A stretch of 64,000 bases of DNA from Chitinophagaceae bacterium IBVUCB1 (GTDB lineage Bacteria > Bacteroidota > Bacteroidia > Chitinophagales > Chitinophagaceae), in the NCBI GenBank assembly GCA_002127285.1, contig NFUW01000002.1, positions 1-64,000 on the forward strand. Direction: 5' to 3'. Shown here one piece after another: positions 8,914 to 33,996 of the stretch (position 1 is the first letter of the stretch; the number at the start of each line of letters is the position of its first letter). The notes under the pieces are model-generated. The model ran no database searches. It was not told the DNA's origin and saw only the letters and a list, made by a program, of their open reading frames with translations. Made by a program: the position numbers and the translations under genes.

Positions 8914-10011
8914 TCAGGAATTGATGTCTTTGTTTTCTTTAAGCATAGCTGTCATTCGTTCAATAGCTTTGCGGCTATTATCGTCGGGGGCTTTGGCTTT
9001 TGCTTTGTCGCAGAAGCTTAATGCCTTTTTATAATCGCCAACTGCAGAGCAGCCACGCATCATGCCAACAAGTGTTACGAAGTTGTCGGGGTTTTTCTTA
9101 TAGTTTAATTCAAATATTTCTCGGGCTTTTTTCATTTCTTTTTCACGGAGTAAGGTTCTGCCATAGCTGTTCATTTCTGCCATGCTGAACCGTATAACGC
9201 TGGCTGCCATCAGGCTGTCAGCTTCTCGTTTTCTGTTCAGTTGCAGTAATACTCTGCGCTGCAGGTTGATACCAAAGAAAGTAGGGACTATCCTGCTGCC
9301 TTGTCTGGCATATTCCAGCGCTTTATCCAGCATGATATTATTATCAAGGTAATAACCGGCAGCCTCGAAGTAAGCATTGGGATTGAACGTTTTCTGCCCG
9401 TTCATTTCTCTTTCAATACTTGCCAGTTGCAGTTTTTGCAGTTGAGTAGATACGGTAAAAGGTATGGATAATTTGTCCCATGTTAGGGCAATCTCCGCAC
9501 TGCTGTCTGTTTGATTTCGAAAACTGTACGTCAGCCTTTCGGTTGTATATTGTTCTGATACAGGCTTTACGTTTACCCTCAGCGCGTCCTCGTTCGCATC
9601 GTAGAAATAACTGCCCCAGCCTTCCGTACTGTTAGAGAATATAACGATGCTATTATCTGCCCCGTAAGCAATGTGCAACCCATATTTGCCTGCTTTCAAC
9701 GGTTTGCCTTCTACCATCACGTCTGTAGAAAATTCTATAATTGTATTTTCATTTGCGCCGGCGCGCCATGGGATGTTTCTGGGTTTACCAAAACTGGCAT
9801 CTGCCATAAAGCCCTCATGCACAACGCTGCCCCATACTTTGCCATCTCTGCCCCTTAGCCCCGGACGCCCATAGCTGATTTTTACATCCGTTATACCAAT
9901 AGTTTCTCCAATAGTAGCTTTTACGCTTCCGCCGTTTGCCGGCATAGTTAATTGCGCGTTCGTTGCAAAGACGGAAAGCATACAGCATACGACTGATAAT
10001 ATCTTTTTCAT
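8914..10011 (-). CDS. DUF2911 domain protein, longer paralogue
   Basis: The 365-aa protein has a signal peptide (MKKILSVVCCMLSVFATNAQ), then the same DUF2911 core as its downstream neighbour: ISYGRPGLRGRDGKVWGSVV, IPWRAGANENTIIEF and LKAGKYGLHIAYG. The C-terminal 170 residues are TPR-like helices, with more repeats than the shorter copy (KALEYARQGSRIVP, KKAREIFELNYKKNPDNF, KKALSFCDKAKAKAPDD). Tandem location and a shared two-domain plan indicate an old duplication followed by strong divergence. Function is unknown. Confidence 0.88.
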   Translation of the reverse strand: MKKILSVVCCMLSVFATNAQLTMPANGGSVKATIGETIGITDVKISYGRPGLRGRDGKVWGSVVHEGFMADASFGKPRNIPWRAGANENTIIEFSTDVMVEGKPLKAGKYGLHIAYGADNSIVIFSNSTEGWGSYFYDANEDALRVNVKPVSEQYTTERLTYSFRNQTDSSAEIALTWDKLSIPFTVSTQLQKLQLASIEREMNGQKTFNPNAYFEAAGYYLDNNIMLDKALEYARQGSRIVPTFFGINLQRRVLLQLNRKREADSLMAASVIRFSMAEMNSYGRTLLREKEMKKAREIFELNYKKNPDNFVTLVGMMRGCSAVGDYKKALSFCDKAKAKAPDDNSRKAIERMTAMLKENKDINS

Positions 10012-28800: not shown

Positions 28801-28929
28801 ACGCTAATATACTATAAAACACTACACGCATTGGCGGGCAATGCTTTGTTTAGCTATCGGTTAATGCCTTGTTAAGCACGTCGCATATTGTTGTTAAGCG
28901 TGTTTAATACTGGTGTTACCGGCTTATAA

Positions 28930-28953
28930 ACGACCCGTTAAACGGGTCGTTTT
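28930..28953 (+). terminator. Terminator-like hairpin in a divergent gap
   Basis: ACGACCCGTT pairs perfectly with AACGGGTCGT, followed by TTTTGTTT. The surrounding genes point away from each other, so neither needs a terminator here. It may end a short transcript from 28801-28930, or simply insulate the PID-CTERM promoter that starts 2 bp later. Confidence 0.6.
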
Positions 28954-28954
28954 G

Positions 28955-28987
28955 TTTGCAGTGTACCCTTGCTACGCAGCATATTTG
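28955..28987 (+). promoter_or_regulatory. Promoter of the PID-CTERM/exosortase unit
   Basis: TTTG at 28955-28958 and CATATTTG at 28980-28987 (one mismatch to TAnnTTTG) are separated by 21 bp, the normal Bacteroidota -33/-7 spacing. Transcription would start near 28993, giving a leader of about 45 nt. Confidence 0.6.
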
Positions 28988-29039
28988 TGTCGTCTGTAAG
29001 ACAAAAACCAATTCGTTTACCATTTTAAAAAAAGTAGAA

Positions 29040-29237
29040 ATGAAAAAACAAATCATGCTGACGGCAACGTTTGTATTGGTAGCAGTAGCGGCAATAGCAC
29101 AAACCCCTGCGGAATGTGTACCCGTAGATGGCGGGCTGAGCCTGCTGGTAGCGGCAGGTGTTGCGGGCTATAGCGCGAAGAAAGTTGCTGAAAAGAAAAA
29201 GCAAGCCAAGGATAATACGCAAACAAACGATAAGTAG
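29040..29237 (+). CDS. PID-CTERM-type sorting substrate, minimal 65-aa protein
   Basis: The product starts with a signal peptide (residues 1-20, cleavage after AIA). Residues 28-48 are a C-terminal sorting signal: PVDGG, then a hydrophobic helix (LSLLVAAGVAGY), then a Lys-rich tail (AKKVAEKKKQ). This tripartite P(I/V)DGG-helix-basic form is what I know as PID-CTERM in Bacteroidota. Only seven residues (QTPAECV) lie between the signal peptidase site and the motif, so the mature protein has almost no cargo. It precedes the exosortase gene by 7 bp, which identifies the likely processing enzyme. ATG at 29040 was chosen by the signal peptide. Confidence 0.82.
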   Translation: MKKQIMLTATFVLVAVAAIAQTPAECVPVDGGLSLLVAAGVAGYSAKKVAEKKKQAKDNTQTNDK

Positions 29238-29244
29238 TTTTCGT

Positions 29245-29769
29245 ATGGTCGCACAGACAGTCAGGTTATATCGTGAGCTGCCTATTGGTGTCAGGCAGTT
29301 TTTAATGAAATCTCTCCTCATGCTTTCGGGGTGGCTTGCGATATACCATTTGCTCTTGAAGCCGCTGCGCTTTCCTGACAGGCAGTTGACGCAACTGGTA
29401 ATAAACAGTACGGTGTACCTGCTGAATGCTTTTGGGCTGGATGCCACCAGCAAAGGGTTATGGGTGTACATCGGCAACAAATTCACAGTAGGTGTGGCAG
29501 ATCAGTGCAACGGGCTGGAGCTGATGGTATTGTTTGTTGGTTTTCTGCTGGCTATTCATGGCAGCATCAAATCAAAGCTATGGTACATCTTTGCAGGCAC
29601 GCTGCTTATCTACGTGCTGAATGTACTGCGCTGCGCGGGGCTGGCGTATATGAACCTGATAGATGCGCCGCTGACAGACTTCGCTCATCACTACGCTTTC
29701 AAGCTGGTGATATATGCCGTCATCTTCCTGATGTGGTATGTTTATAGTAAAAAACACAAGGCACAATAA
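29245..29769 (+). CDS. Exosortase/archaeosortase family transpeptidase
   Basis: The 174-aa membrane protein has about five helices and the three expected catalytic residues: Cys88 in VADQCNGLELMV, Arg129 in LNVLRCAGLAYM, and His148/His149 in FAHHYAFKLVIY. Exosortases cut C-terminal sorting signals on the outer face of the inner membrane and pass the protein to an acceptor. ATG at 29245 was chosen; the frame opening at 29158 runs through the substrate gene. The length is short, as in Bacteroidota single-domain exosortases. The stop lies 1 bp from the stop of the convergent ABC permease gene. Confidence 0.88.
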   Translation: MVAQTVRLYRELPIGVRQFLMKSLLMLSGWLAIYHLLLKPLRFPDRQLTQLVINSTVYLLNAFGLDATSKGLWVYIGNKFTVGVADQCNGLELMVLFVGFLLAIHGSIKSKLWYIFAGTLLIYVLNVLRCAGLAYMNLIDAPLTDFAHHYAFKLVIYAVIFLMWYVYSKKHKAQ

Positions 29770-29770
29770 T

Positions 29771-30976
29771 CTATTCATTGCCCCGCAGCGATGCGAATAT
29801 AGCTTTGCTCACAAAGCTTATCAGCACACCCGCGCTCAATAGCAAGGCAGCCCATACCCATATGCCGGGTGTGTTAGGTAATGTAAGCCCCATGGGCAAT
29901 AACTGCGCCGCGGCTATACCCTGTGCCGCAATGGCCACGATGGCTGCCATGCCCAGTGCCACACATATAAGCGGCACAAAACGCCTGAGCATAAACATGG
30001 CAAGGTAGCGGGGGCTGTAACCCATCAGTAATAACAGTGACAGGGATTGCCTTGCTTTTGCAATCGTCAGTTCTATAAACAGGATGAATACCAGCGTGCC
30101 CATACCCATCAGCAAGATGGCGAGTATACCCGTGCCCGATGCCACGGCCTCTATCACGCTGCGCATTTTGTTCCATCTCAGTTGTTCGCTATTCGTTGTA
30201 TAATTGTTCTTCTTCAAAAAATCGGAAAAGCGTTTGTCGCTCGGGTCTTTTACTTTCAATATCAGCCTTGATGGGGCAATGGGTGTAGTGGGTGCAAAGG
30301 TTTTGTTGCCGTATTCTATAAATGATTGCGGTACAAGTACGGAACTGATACGGTCGCTGAAGCCCACAACGCGCCCTGTATAATGCTCTGTATATATGCC
30401 TCGCCCGATGGTAAGGTCGAACGCGAGGGCTTGTATGGTAGATTGCGATAACTGCGGCAGGTTTTGGCTAAGGGCAAAGCCGTAGTTGTACAGGTTCAGA
30501 AAATCGGACGATAGGATGATGGGTATCTGCGTATTGCCTGGCTCCCATACCCAGCCAAACGGCGTATTGTCCATAAACCTGTCGGGCACGGCTTCCAGAA
30601 ACATATCTGTGGCAAAGCCATTGGCAATGCTGAGCGATGCATACACGGGAAACCTGTTGGATACCAGCATACCCACATCCTGCACCTGCGGTGCGGCACT
30701 TACAGCTTCTATTTCTCTGGGCGTATACAGCGATGCGTTTTTCTTACCCATCGTCTCGTTGGTTATCTGTTTGCCAATGGTGAGGAACGTGCTGCCGAGG
30801 CTATCATTACTGGCACTGCCATTCAGTATCAGGCTGAAGTTCCACCATATCATCACGGCTACCAGCAGCAGGGTAGTGCCTGCAAACAAGGCTACCAGCG
30901 ATAGCCAGAGCCTGTTGTTACTGCGGTGGCGTAGCAGCAGTTTACTTACCAGTTTCGATTGTTTCAGGGGTTTCAT
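29771..30976 (-). CDS. ABC transporter permease, FtsX/MacB type
   Basis: The 401-aa protein has one N-terminal helix (LWLSLVALFAGTTLLLVAVM), a periplasmic domain of about 220 residues and three C-terminal helices (ILAILLMGMGTLVFILFIEL, FVPLICVALGMAAIVAI, WAALLLSAGVLISFV). This is the MacB/LolC/FtsX topology, which usually moves lipoproteins, lipids or signals by mechanotransmission rather than solutes. The gene overlaps the ATPase gene by 4 bp, so the pair is one operon. The substrate is unknown. Confidence 0.88.
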   Translation of the reverse strand: MKPLKQSKLVSKLLLRHRSNNRLWLSLVALFAGTTLLLVAVMIWWNFSLILNGSASNDSLGSTFLTIGKQITNETMGKKNASLYTPREIEAVSAAPQVQDVGMLVSNRFPVYASLSIANGFATDMFLEAVPDRFMDNTPFGWVWEPGNTQIPIILSSDFLNLYNYGFALSQNLPQLSQSTIQALAFDLTIGRGIYTEHYTGRVVGFSDRISSVLVPQSFIEYGNKTFAPTTPIAPSRLILKVKDPSDKRFSDFLKKNNYTTNSEQLRWNKMRSVIEAVASGTGILAILLMGMGTLVFILFIELTIAKARQSLSLLLLMGYSPRYLAMFMLRRFVPLICVALGMAAIVAIAAQGIAAAQLLPMGLTLPNTPGIWVWAALLLSAGVLISFVSKAIFASLRGNE

Positions 30977-31848: not shown

Positions 31849-32595
31849 TCATGGTGCTGCGTCGAGTTTGTGATTAAGCATTAGAAGCCCGTTTTGTGTT
31901 ATGCTCAAAATATATGTGCCGCGTGGCAATGTTTCTATATTAATAGCATTATGCCCTGTGGCAGCATCGGCAACCAGCAGCTTACTGCCTGCCATATCGC
32001 AGATGTGTATGTTTGCTTTGCCTGAAAGGTTCGGTATGTCTATATTGATAGTTTTGCCCGCAGGGTTTGGGTAGATGCGCACATTGCTCATAGTGGCACA
32101 TGGTACACTTGTTGCCTGCATAGAATTGTATATGACATATACTATGGCACTATCTGCGGGGTTGTTCTCGTCGTAGAAAGTATAGGCTACCAAGTCTTTG
32201 GTGGGTGTGTGTGTAGTCGCCAAATACCTGTAGTGCCCAGAAAAGCTGCTATCTGTTTTGCCACCCTGCAGGTTGACAAAACCAGGTGCTGTATAGATAC
32301 TTGATGTGTAGCACATACCAGCAAAACAAATACTATGCTCTGCTGTGCTGCTGTATGTTAGTTCTCTTTTCCTCGCTTTTAGGACTATCTGATTGCTATT
32401 AATGTTATGGATAAAGAAATAGCTTGACATTTCAGTATAAGGCGGCTTTTGTCCTGGCTCAGGAATTACTATAACTGTATCTCCGTTTTTTGTAATGCCA
32501 TTTCTGTCTTTAATAAGAATGCCTTGTGCGTTGGCACTATTCAACATCAGGAAGCAGATGCAGAACGTAAATAACCAGTAGCTTTTCCTGTACAT
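31849..32595 (-). CDS. T9SS-exported protein, small
   Basis: The 248-aa protein has a signal peptide (MYRKSYWLFTFCICFLMLNSANAQ), a beta-rich region of about 145 residues without a recognised domain (two cysteines in CFAGMCYTS) and a type A sorting domain from NVRIYPNPAGKTINIDIP to the end. It lies 33 bp after the serine hydrolase gene on the same strand and may be co-transcribed. Function unknown; export by T9SS is well supported. Confidence 0.8.
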   Translation of the reverse strand: MYRKSYWLFTFCICFLMLNSANAQGILIKDRNGITKNGDTVIVIPEPGQKPPYTEMSSYFFIHNINSNQIVLKARKRELTYSSTAEHSICFAGMCYTSSIYTAPGFVNLQGGKTDSSFSGHYRYLATTHTPTKDLVAYTFYDENNPADSAIVYVIYNSMQATSVPCATMSNVRIYPNPAGKTINIDIPNLSGKANIHICDMAGSKLLVADAATGHNAINIETLPRGTYILSITQNGLLMLNHKLDAAP

Positions 32596-32628: not shown

Positions 32629-33996
32629 TTACTCTTTGATAAATTTCATAGTTATGTGCTCGTCATCTGTCGTCAGGCGCAGTACATAATTACCCTGTGG
32701 TAATTGTTCTGCATCTACCATGTTATTATTAACTGACTGTTGCAATATCTGCCTGCCAGTCATATCGTACACTGTTGCTATAGCAGCGCTTTTCAATCCT
32801 TTGATGTATAGCTTTTTGCCTACAGGGTTGGGGTAGATGCTGACGGCGGGTTTTGCCTCTGCGCCTGCAATGGCTGCTGTTGGCAGCTTTATCAGGTAAC
32901 GGTGCAATGGTGTCAGTATGCGGCTGAATAGCAAGCTGTTGTTGATGCTATCCTGATTGGAGAGCAGGGTGATGCAGATGCCGCTGAGTGAGTCGCGAAA
33001 GTTTTCGTTTATATAACCAAAGCAGGTTCCGCCGTGGCAATAACCTACTCGCCCGTTGATACTGGCATACCTGAATACGCCCAACCCGTAGCGATTGGCA
33101 CCGCCACCCATAGATACGGTTGTACGCAGTTCTTCGAGCGATGTGTTGTTGACGATGCGCCCGTTCATCAGGTCGTCCCAAAAACGAACATTATCCTCTG
33201 CGGTAGATACGATGCCGCCTGCCGCGCCTGCCATACTTTGGAAAGCGGTATTGTCGTAGTTATAATCTACCTGTATATCTTCCAGCTTCATACCGCCCGA
33301 TGCGTTTACCGACCACCCGTGTGGTATGTAACCCGTTGCGGGTTCTTGCGGAAATAATATGGTTTTGTTGTAGTTGCGTGGTGTCAGTATGCGGTTGCGC
33401 AGGGCGGTTTCATAAGGTACGTTCAGCACCTTGCTGATAATCATGCCTGCCAGTATATAGCCCGAATTGCTGTAGTCCCAGCCCATGCCGGGGGTAAAGG
33501 TAGGTGTAGCGATGTATTGCAATATGTCTTCGGGTTTCCATAATTTGGTATAATCGGCATTGAGGGCAGCAGAGAAAGCGGGGTTGTTTGTAAAGTTGTA
33601 GATGCCGCTGGTATGGTTCAGCATCTGGCGGATGGTTACTTTGCCGTTTACATTAGGTATGTTTTGCAGCCATGTGCCGATGCTGTCGTCAAGGTCCAGC
33701 TTGCCTTCTTCCTGCAATTGCAGCAGTATGGCTGCGGTGAATGTTTTGGTATTGCTGCCTATGGGCTGCCATGTATCGGGTGTAATCTTCACGGCATCGT
33801 GCGATACGCCGTAGCTGCCTTTCCACACACCCATGCCTGGTATCAGTACTGCCGCCGTTACGCCTTTTACTTTGTTTTTGGCGCAGGCACTATCCAGCAG
33901 GTATTGCAGGTGGTTGGCAAATGCGGGTGGTATCTGCGCATAGCTGCTTTGCAGGCTATACAGCAGTACGATGATTGCAAGTAGTAGTTTTCTCAT
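32629..33996 (-). CDS. Secreted beta-lactamase-fold serine hydrolase with T9SS tail
   Basis: The 455-aa protein has a signal peptide and a class C beta-lactamase/DD-peptidase-like domain at residues 25-370: the SxxK motif in IGSNTKTFTAA, the YxN motif in WDYSNSGYILAGM and an HGG triad (VGYCHGGTCFGY). A type A sorting domain begins SIYPNPVGKKLYIKG. Related proteins include D-aminopeptidases, esterases and beta-lactamases. The conserved active site suggests an active hydrolase, but the substrate cannot be told. Surface exposure via T9SS argues against a role in cytoplasmic wall recycling. Confidence 0.9.
   Translation of the reverse strand: MRKLLLAIIVLLYSLQSSYAQIPPAFANHLQYLLDSACAKNKVKGVTAAVLIPGMGVWKGSYGVSHDAVKITPDTWQPIGSNTKTFTAAILLQLQEEGKLDLDDSIGTWLQNIPNVNGKVTIRQMLNHTSGIYNFTNNPAFSAALNADYTKLWKPEDILQYIATPTFTPGMGWDYSNSGYILAGMIISKVLNVPYETALRNRILTPRNYNKTILFPQEPATGYIPHGWSVNASGGMKLEDIQVDYNYDNTAFQSMAGAAGGIVSTAEDNVRFWDDLMNGRIVNNTSLEELRTTVSMGGGANRYGLGVFRYASINGRVGYCHGGTCFGYINENFRDSLSGICITLLSNQDSINNSLLFSRILTPLHRYLIKLPTAAIAGAEAKPAVSIYPNPVGKKLYIKGLKSAAIATVYDMTGRQILQQSVNNNMVDAEQLPQGNYVLRLTTDDEHITMKFIKE

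Follow-up and report, generated by a model that had tools for sequence, protein, structure and literature searches.

A short PID-CTERM-like protein encoded directly before an XrtX-like exosortase in Chitinophagaceae bacterium IBVUCB1

The window analysed here is a stretch of 64,000 nucleotides from Chitinophagaceae bacterium IBVUCB1 (contig NFUW01000002.1, positions 1 to 64,000). On its forward strand, a gene for a 65-aa protein (29040–29237, stop included) lies directly before a gene for a 174-aa exosortase (29245–29769), and the gap between the two ORFs is 7 bp, exactly the distance given in a preliminary description of this DNA. The translated small ORF has the layout MKKQIMLTATFVLVAVAAIA-QTPAECV-PVDGG-LSLLVAAGVAGYSA-KK..., in keeping with the signal peptide, 7-residue spacer and P(V)DGG-helix-Lys tail read from it earlier, and the coordinates and lengths given there for the two ORFs are exact. 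The signal peptide MKKQIMLTATFVLVAVAAIA (29040–29099, forward strand as are all parts of the pair), delimited by eye at A20, has a mean hydropathy of 2.2 over residues 4–20, and an AxA precedes Gln21. It is followed by the short mature segment QTPAECV of 7 residues (29100–29120), whose Cys26 is kept in 3/3 orthologs, and by the PVDGG motif (29121–29135), the presumed recognition or processing site, which corresponds to positions 1–5 of the PID-CTERM profile NF046080. The next 14 residues, LSLLVAAGVAGYSA (29136–29177), make up a short Gly/Ala helix of hydrophobic character that extends up to the first Lys, and a Lys-rich C-terminal tail (29178–29234) follows. A mature product with this layout has to be a short peptide, and the proposal that the sorting signal makes up nearly the whole of it holds. 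Whether as a peptide anchor, a signal or an acceptor primer, the roles suggested for it earlier would be hypothetical ones.

The match of the 65-aa protein to NF046080 reaches 24.2 bits (E 2e-5), under the curated cut-off of 26 bits, and covers only profile positions 1–16; in the genome-wide PID-CTERM search the protein scores 25.1 bits against the same cut-off. It possesses the PID-CTERM feature set, namely a signal peptide (by eye), PxDGG, a hydrophobic helix and a basic C-terminus. No match to the C-terminal T9SS type A domain (TIGR04183/PF18962) is found on this protein, and the near-invariant Pro-Glu-Pro motif of PEP-CTERM is absent from it, the motif in that place being PVDGG. Together with its syntenic orthologs, the NF046080 match identifies it as a PID-CTERM-like exosortase substrate. 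The motif occurs in 0 ORFs of 60 block shuffles of the window.

The 174-aa protein matches the exosortase/archaeosortase superfamily models TIGR04178 (57.3 bits; cut-off 23) and PF09721 (42.5 bits; cut-off 25.7), and its best subfamily is XrtX with 138.9 bits, followed by XrtF with 82 and XrtY with 64 bits. The cut-off of the XrtX model NF046081, 170 bits, is not reached by this protein, nor is it reached in any of 197 Chitinophagaceae genomes. The cut-off therefore appears narrow for this family, and for the same reason the pair is named XrtX-like and PID-CTERM-like here. Residues 88, 129, 148 and 149 are Cys, Arg, His and His, as had been noted for the active-site set. Cys88 (29506–29508), the presumed nucleophile, and Arg129 (29629–29631) are invariant in 48 sequences, as is His148 of the His148-His149 pair (29686–29691), with His149 kept in at least 90% of them; Cys88, Arg129 and His148 are also invariant across 15 XrtX/XrtY proteins. 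An AlphaFold2 model of the enzyme is a helical membrane bundle with a mean pLDDT of 92.5, and no solved structure was found for it by sequence or fold comparison. In a tree, the window enzyme and its ortholog from Chitinophagaceae bacterium LGM1 group together as a well supported lineage of their own within the XrtX clade, apart from the XrtY group. By its sequence, the enzyme is an exosortase, and it would be expected to carry out tag cleavage or transpeptidation.

Although a genome-contig search with a single protein returned no relatives, an alignment-based contig search did, the closest named ones being LGM1 (L229/L137) and a Flavipsychrobacter MAG (L230). Both have the gene order of the window, with a small-gene ortholog of 64/65 aa, and in the three orthologs the small gene is directly upstream of the exosortase gene with a gap of at most 7 bp. 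Among the three ortholog pairs of the small gene, dN is 0.085–0.131 and dS 1.18–1.65 (dN/dS about 0.07–0.10), and the differences fall mostly at third codon positions. Both genes of the pair are syntenic in the two relatives and under strong purifying selection, so that the 65-aa frame is neither missing nor unconserved beside the orthologous exosortase. A chance ORF is ruled out by dN/dS and the block shuffles. The intergenic region in front of the pair (28801–29039, forward strand), presumably a promoter or leader, is partly conserved in the alignment of the three orthologs.

An ABC permease gene convergent with the exosortase gene ends at 29771. The tail-to-tail arrangement at 1 bp described earlier is thus correct, but the label 'LolD/MacB class' does not extend to the permease; it derives from the ATPase, since the permease has no Pfam match. 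As a partner of the pair, the ABC transporter was rejected, because it is convergent, kept only within local synteny and not present in the other XrtX operons compared. General synteny accounts for the position of the ABC genes next to the pair, and no further tie between them was found. Two adjoining T9SS type A cargo proteins are encoded farther on at 31849–32595 and 32629–33996 (reverse strand), of which the latter resembles a serine beta-lactamase-type hydrolase.

PID-CTERM proteins were found in 59 of the 197 Chitinophagaceae genomes, with open frames of at most 144 aa among the matches listed, and in 57 genomes of a 395-genome phylum sample, where the frames listed are of 31–200 aa with one long exception. 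This exception (L209:4615-7536, reverse strand; an open frame of 995 aa with a protein of 973 aa), the candidate for a PID protein with cargo, is an unrelated multi-pass membrane protein ending in PIDGEV; with its PIDGEV-helix-basic tail it is possibly the substrate of another exosortase. The PVDGG-type motif is common, with few variants, to 93 collected PID proteins. In 92 of them, with the cleavage site placed by a simple rule, a median of 11 residues precedes the motif. The spacing between DGG and the first basic residue is 13 in 86 of the proteins and 14 in the other 6; in the window protein it is 14. Among the matches listed, PID-CTERM proteins are essentially always tag-only. The preliminary description had set this locus against exosortase substrates that normally carry a large exported domain; its view of a PID-CTERM-like substrate beside its own exosortase stands, but being 'cargo-less' is not special to the locus, because the PID-CTERM family itself is short throughout. 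PID-like variants with PLNEG or PLNGG lie directly before XrtX genes at L165:3397-3621 and L170:4524-4847, which suggests a motif wider than the NCBIfam model.

Among exosortase relatives from named genomes, a PID gene is directly upstream in 34 of 80, and in none of the 20 lowest-ranked loci (L289–L308; mostly Flavobacterium and Salinimicrobium). One contig carrying a Bacteroidota-type exosortase (L292, CALPPA020000033.1) is titled as a Klebsiella pneumoniae MAG and is probably a mislabelled bin. In Segetibacter (L249), a Chitinophagaceae MAG (L258), an Algibacter MAG (L263) and Hyunsoonleella aquatilis (L288), the genes form an operon of a giant T9SS protein, a PID protein, XrtX and a membrane protein, an arrangement that spans Chitinophagaceae and Flavobacteriaceae. 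In most XrtX loci this membrane protein of about 130 aa adjoins or overlaps the XrtX gene (L242:6495-6902, with counterparts in the four operons just named); none of the three scanned exceeds the cut-off of an NCBIfam model. It is missing from the window and LGM1 pairs, and beside the window pair there is neither a T9SS giant nor this membrane gene. The genome itself has three exosortases: that of the window, an XrtX-like one at C2:336k, which has two short PID-like genes with it and a membrane gene downstream, and, at C1:1096k (L014:7436-8023), an XrtY-like one that has no PID gene directly upstream. Near the second XrtX, degenerate, Cys-rich PID sequences with PLEGAA for PLDGG are seen at L012 ~8960-9300 (C2:337.0k) and L136:5754-5981.

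When PID genes beside an exosortase and without a giant in front are taken as an exosortase-linked class, a Cys no more than 12 residues from the motif is present in 13/29 of these versus 4/52 of the giant-linked PIDs (p 1.6e-4), a split that was seen after the fact and serves as a lead. The 65-aa protein has one near-motif Cys, Cys26, as in the exosortase-linked class, and the window pair resembles this minority, richer in Cys.

Most PID genes are found in another setting. Neighbourhoods of the 93 PID genes gave 88 upstream and 85 downstream neighbours, and the T9SS domain TIGR04183 ends 66 of the former versus 8 of the latter (Fisher 2e-19). The background is about 5%, since the window's own genome has 137 matches to the T9SS type A sorting domain above cut-off over an estimated 3,000 or so genes. 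Of 64 large upstream proteins, 61 are connected by homology in the part that precedes the T9SS domain, here called the giant module. Two giants scanned over their whole length show no Pfam or NCBIfam family across the shared module, and its predicted fold (pLDDT 49) is unusable. Only four places in the window's own genome match the module, and a PID gene comes after each of the best two; these giants (L012:2521-5688, forward strand, C2:330-334k; L013:6202-10233, reverse strand, C2:1411-1415k), with the PID-CTERM gene directly after each, contain many degenerate 'NGNPAISYYD...W' repeats. PID genes are often at contig ends, where assemblies break, a pattern to be expected of genes next to repetitive or multi-copy giants.

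Across the 197 genomes, PID occurs with XrtX/Y in 51 and alone in 8, with the exosortase alone in 10 (Fisher 2e-28, shared ancestry ignored), and PID occurs with the giant module in 56 and without it in 3 (Fisher 1e-23, shared ancestry likewise ignored). Within exosortase loci alone, the linkage of module and PID is not significant (11/13 vs 26/47, p 0.10). In distant Bacteroidota families, PID genes again lie, as judged by eye, behind proteins with T9SS-like tails. The giants are not obligatory and the PID-XrtX pair can exist alone, because one genome listed as 100% complete (G134) has PID and XrtX without the giant module; four others (G006, G107, G178 and G079) have XrtX and giants and no recognisable PID. 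No published description of a link between PID-CTERM and T9SS giants was found in the literature searched, though NCBI family notes may contain one, and neither a relevant paper naming XrtX or PID-CTERM nor an experiment on either was found there. The strongest support for a functional link to the giants would be gene order, and the strongest counterpoint the window locus itself.

The best explanation of these data, given a probability of roughly 0.6, is that the pair, a separate lineage of the XrtX/PID-CTERM group, unites an exosortase with a tag-only substrate dedicated to it, and that in most loci the peptide would act in trans as an accessory of T9SS giants. This role is the likeliest because in most loci the peptide gene comes after a T9SS giant, a position suggesting that most family members assist a T9SS surface protein, although the window locus has no giant. 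Since exosortases are viewed as transpeptidase-like (PMC1569441), a route of export, tethering, cutting and transfer can be proposed. Sec would export the 65-aa precursor, the signal peptide would be removed, and the Gly/Ala helix and Lys tail would tether the precursor in the inner membrane. Cys88 would then attack near PVDGG to form an acyl-enzyme with an outward peptide of roughly 10 residues, which the exosortase would hand to an envelope acceptor, so that a short peptide in modified form would remain in the periplasm or envelope. There, the peptide could help T9SS giants in trans to be attached, delivered or assembled. As a member of the exosortase-adjacent class, the window copy may serve giants whose genes lie in other parts of the genome, or it may have a separate role. 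A more specific form of this proposal, tentative and rather doubtful as a whole, would have the exosortase join the peptide to an envelope glycolipid as an in-trans anchor or assembly factor, coupling exosortase processing to T9SS, with the window pair as a specialised, giant-independent offshoot carrying Cys peptides.

The operons of giants and PID genes could also be read without any conjugation. The peptide would then be a tether or licensing factor that keeps a partner, for example the exosortase itself or a T9SS giant, at the inner membrane until cleavage frees this partner. The position of PID genes directly behind giants and a mature part too short for a working domain agree with such a switch, but it is unlikely, because transfer is expected over mere cleavage from an enzyme thought to be transpeptidase-like (PMC1569441), and the binding partner would have to be supposed. 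Less probable still is a short Cys-containing or acidic peptide freed by the exosortase as an extracellular or envelope signal: the tag-only architecture, the retention of Cys26 in three orthologs and the post hoc excess of near-motif Cys in exosortase-linked PIDs would suit it, whereas the residues preceding the motif are highly variable, a receptor or export gene was not found beside the pair, and giants in the same operon are unexpected for a signal. That the small protein instead acts on the exosortase, as an assembly partner or a priming first substrate and not as an exported product, would fit its tag-only form, its place immediately upstream in the three orthologs and the genome with PID and XrtX that lacks the giant module, but is improbable to a similar degree, as most PID genes are far from exosortase genes and beside giants instead.

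A tag-only substrate with an adjoining enzyme offers a minimal system in which to prove exosortase action and to find what the peptide becomes attached to, and so bears on what the exosortases of Bacteroidota act on and what they are for. The PID-giant operon link, seen in two families, would unite two surface-protein pathways treated as separate.

Among named systems, XrtX/PID-CTERM (NF046081, NF046080) is the closest: the window pair shares the exosortase subfamily, PxDGG, the short helix, the basic tail and the signal peptide, but scores under the cut-offs (138.9/170 and 24.2/26), has a helix spacing of 14 rather than 13, and, unlike the usual loci, has no adjoining membrane gene or T9SS giant. 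The 'PExPT-CTERM protein, target of XrtJ' (TIGR04200, a 57-position model) is a precedent for a small substrate dedicated to one exosortase and differs in its motif and in its enzyme subfamily; this model matches a related PID protein weakly (E 7e-4), and we know of no T9SS context for it. PEP-CTERM/EpsH shares the Sec signal, the C-terminal tripartite tag and the membrane Cys/Arg/His enzyme, but its motif is PEP (PMC1569441). PEP-CTERM proteins are diverse, mostly in single-gene operons, and associated with EPS loci (PMC1569441), whereas PID proteins are tag-only, and most of their genes follow a T9SS giant in an operon. XrtF of Flavobacterium johnsoniae, with its associated gene, is likewise a Bacteroidota exosortase and represents the second-best model match (82 bits); its mutants lose surface colonisation and biofilm, and its substrate is not known (PMC10936215), unlike the window enzyme with its adjoining PID-CTERM-like protein. 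The Flavobacterium exosortase loci found here also differ from the window in having no upstream PID genes. The parts of the window pair belong to named kinds, and the link of PID proteins to T9SS giants is the less expected result.
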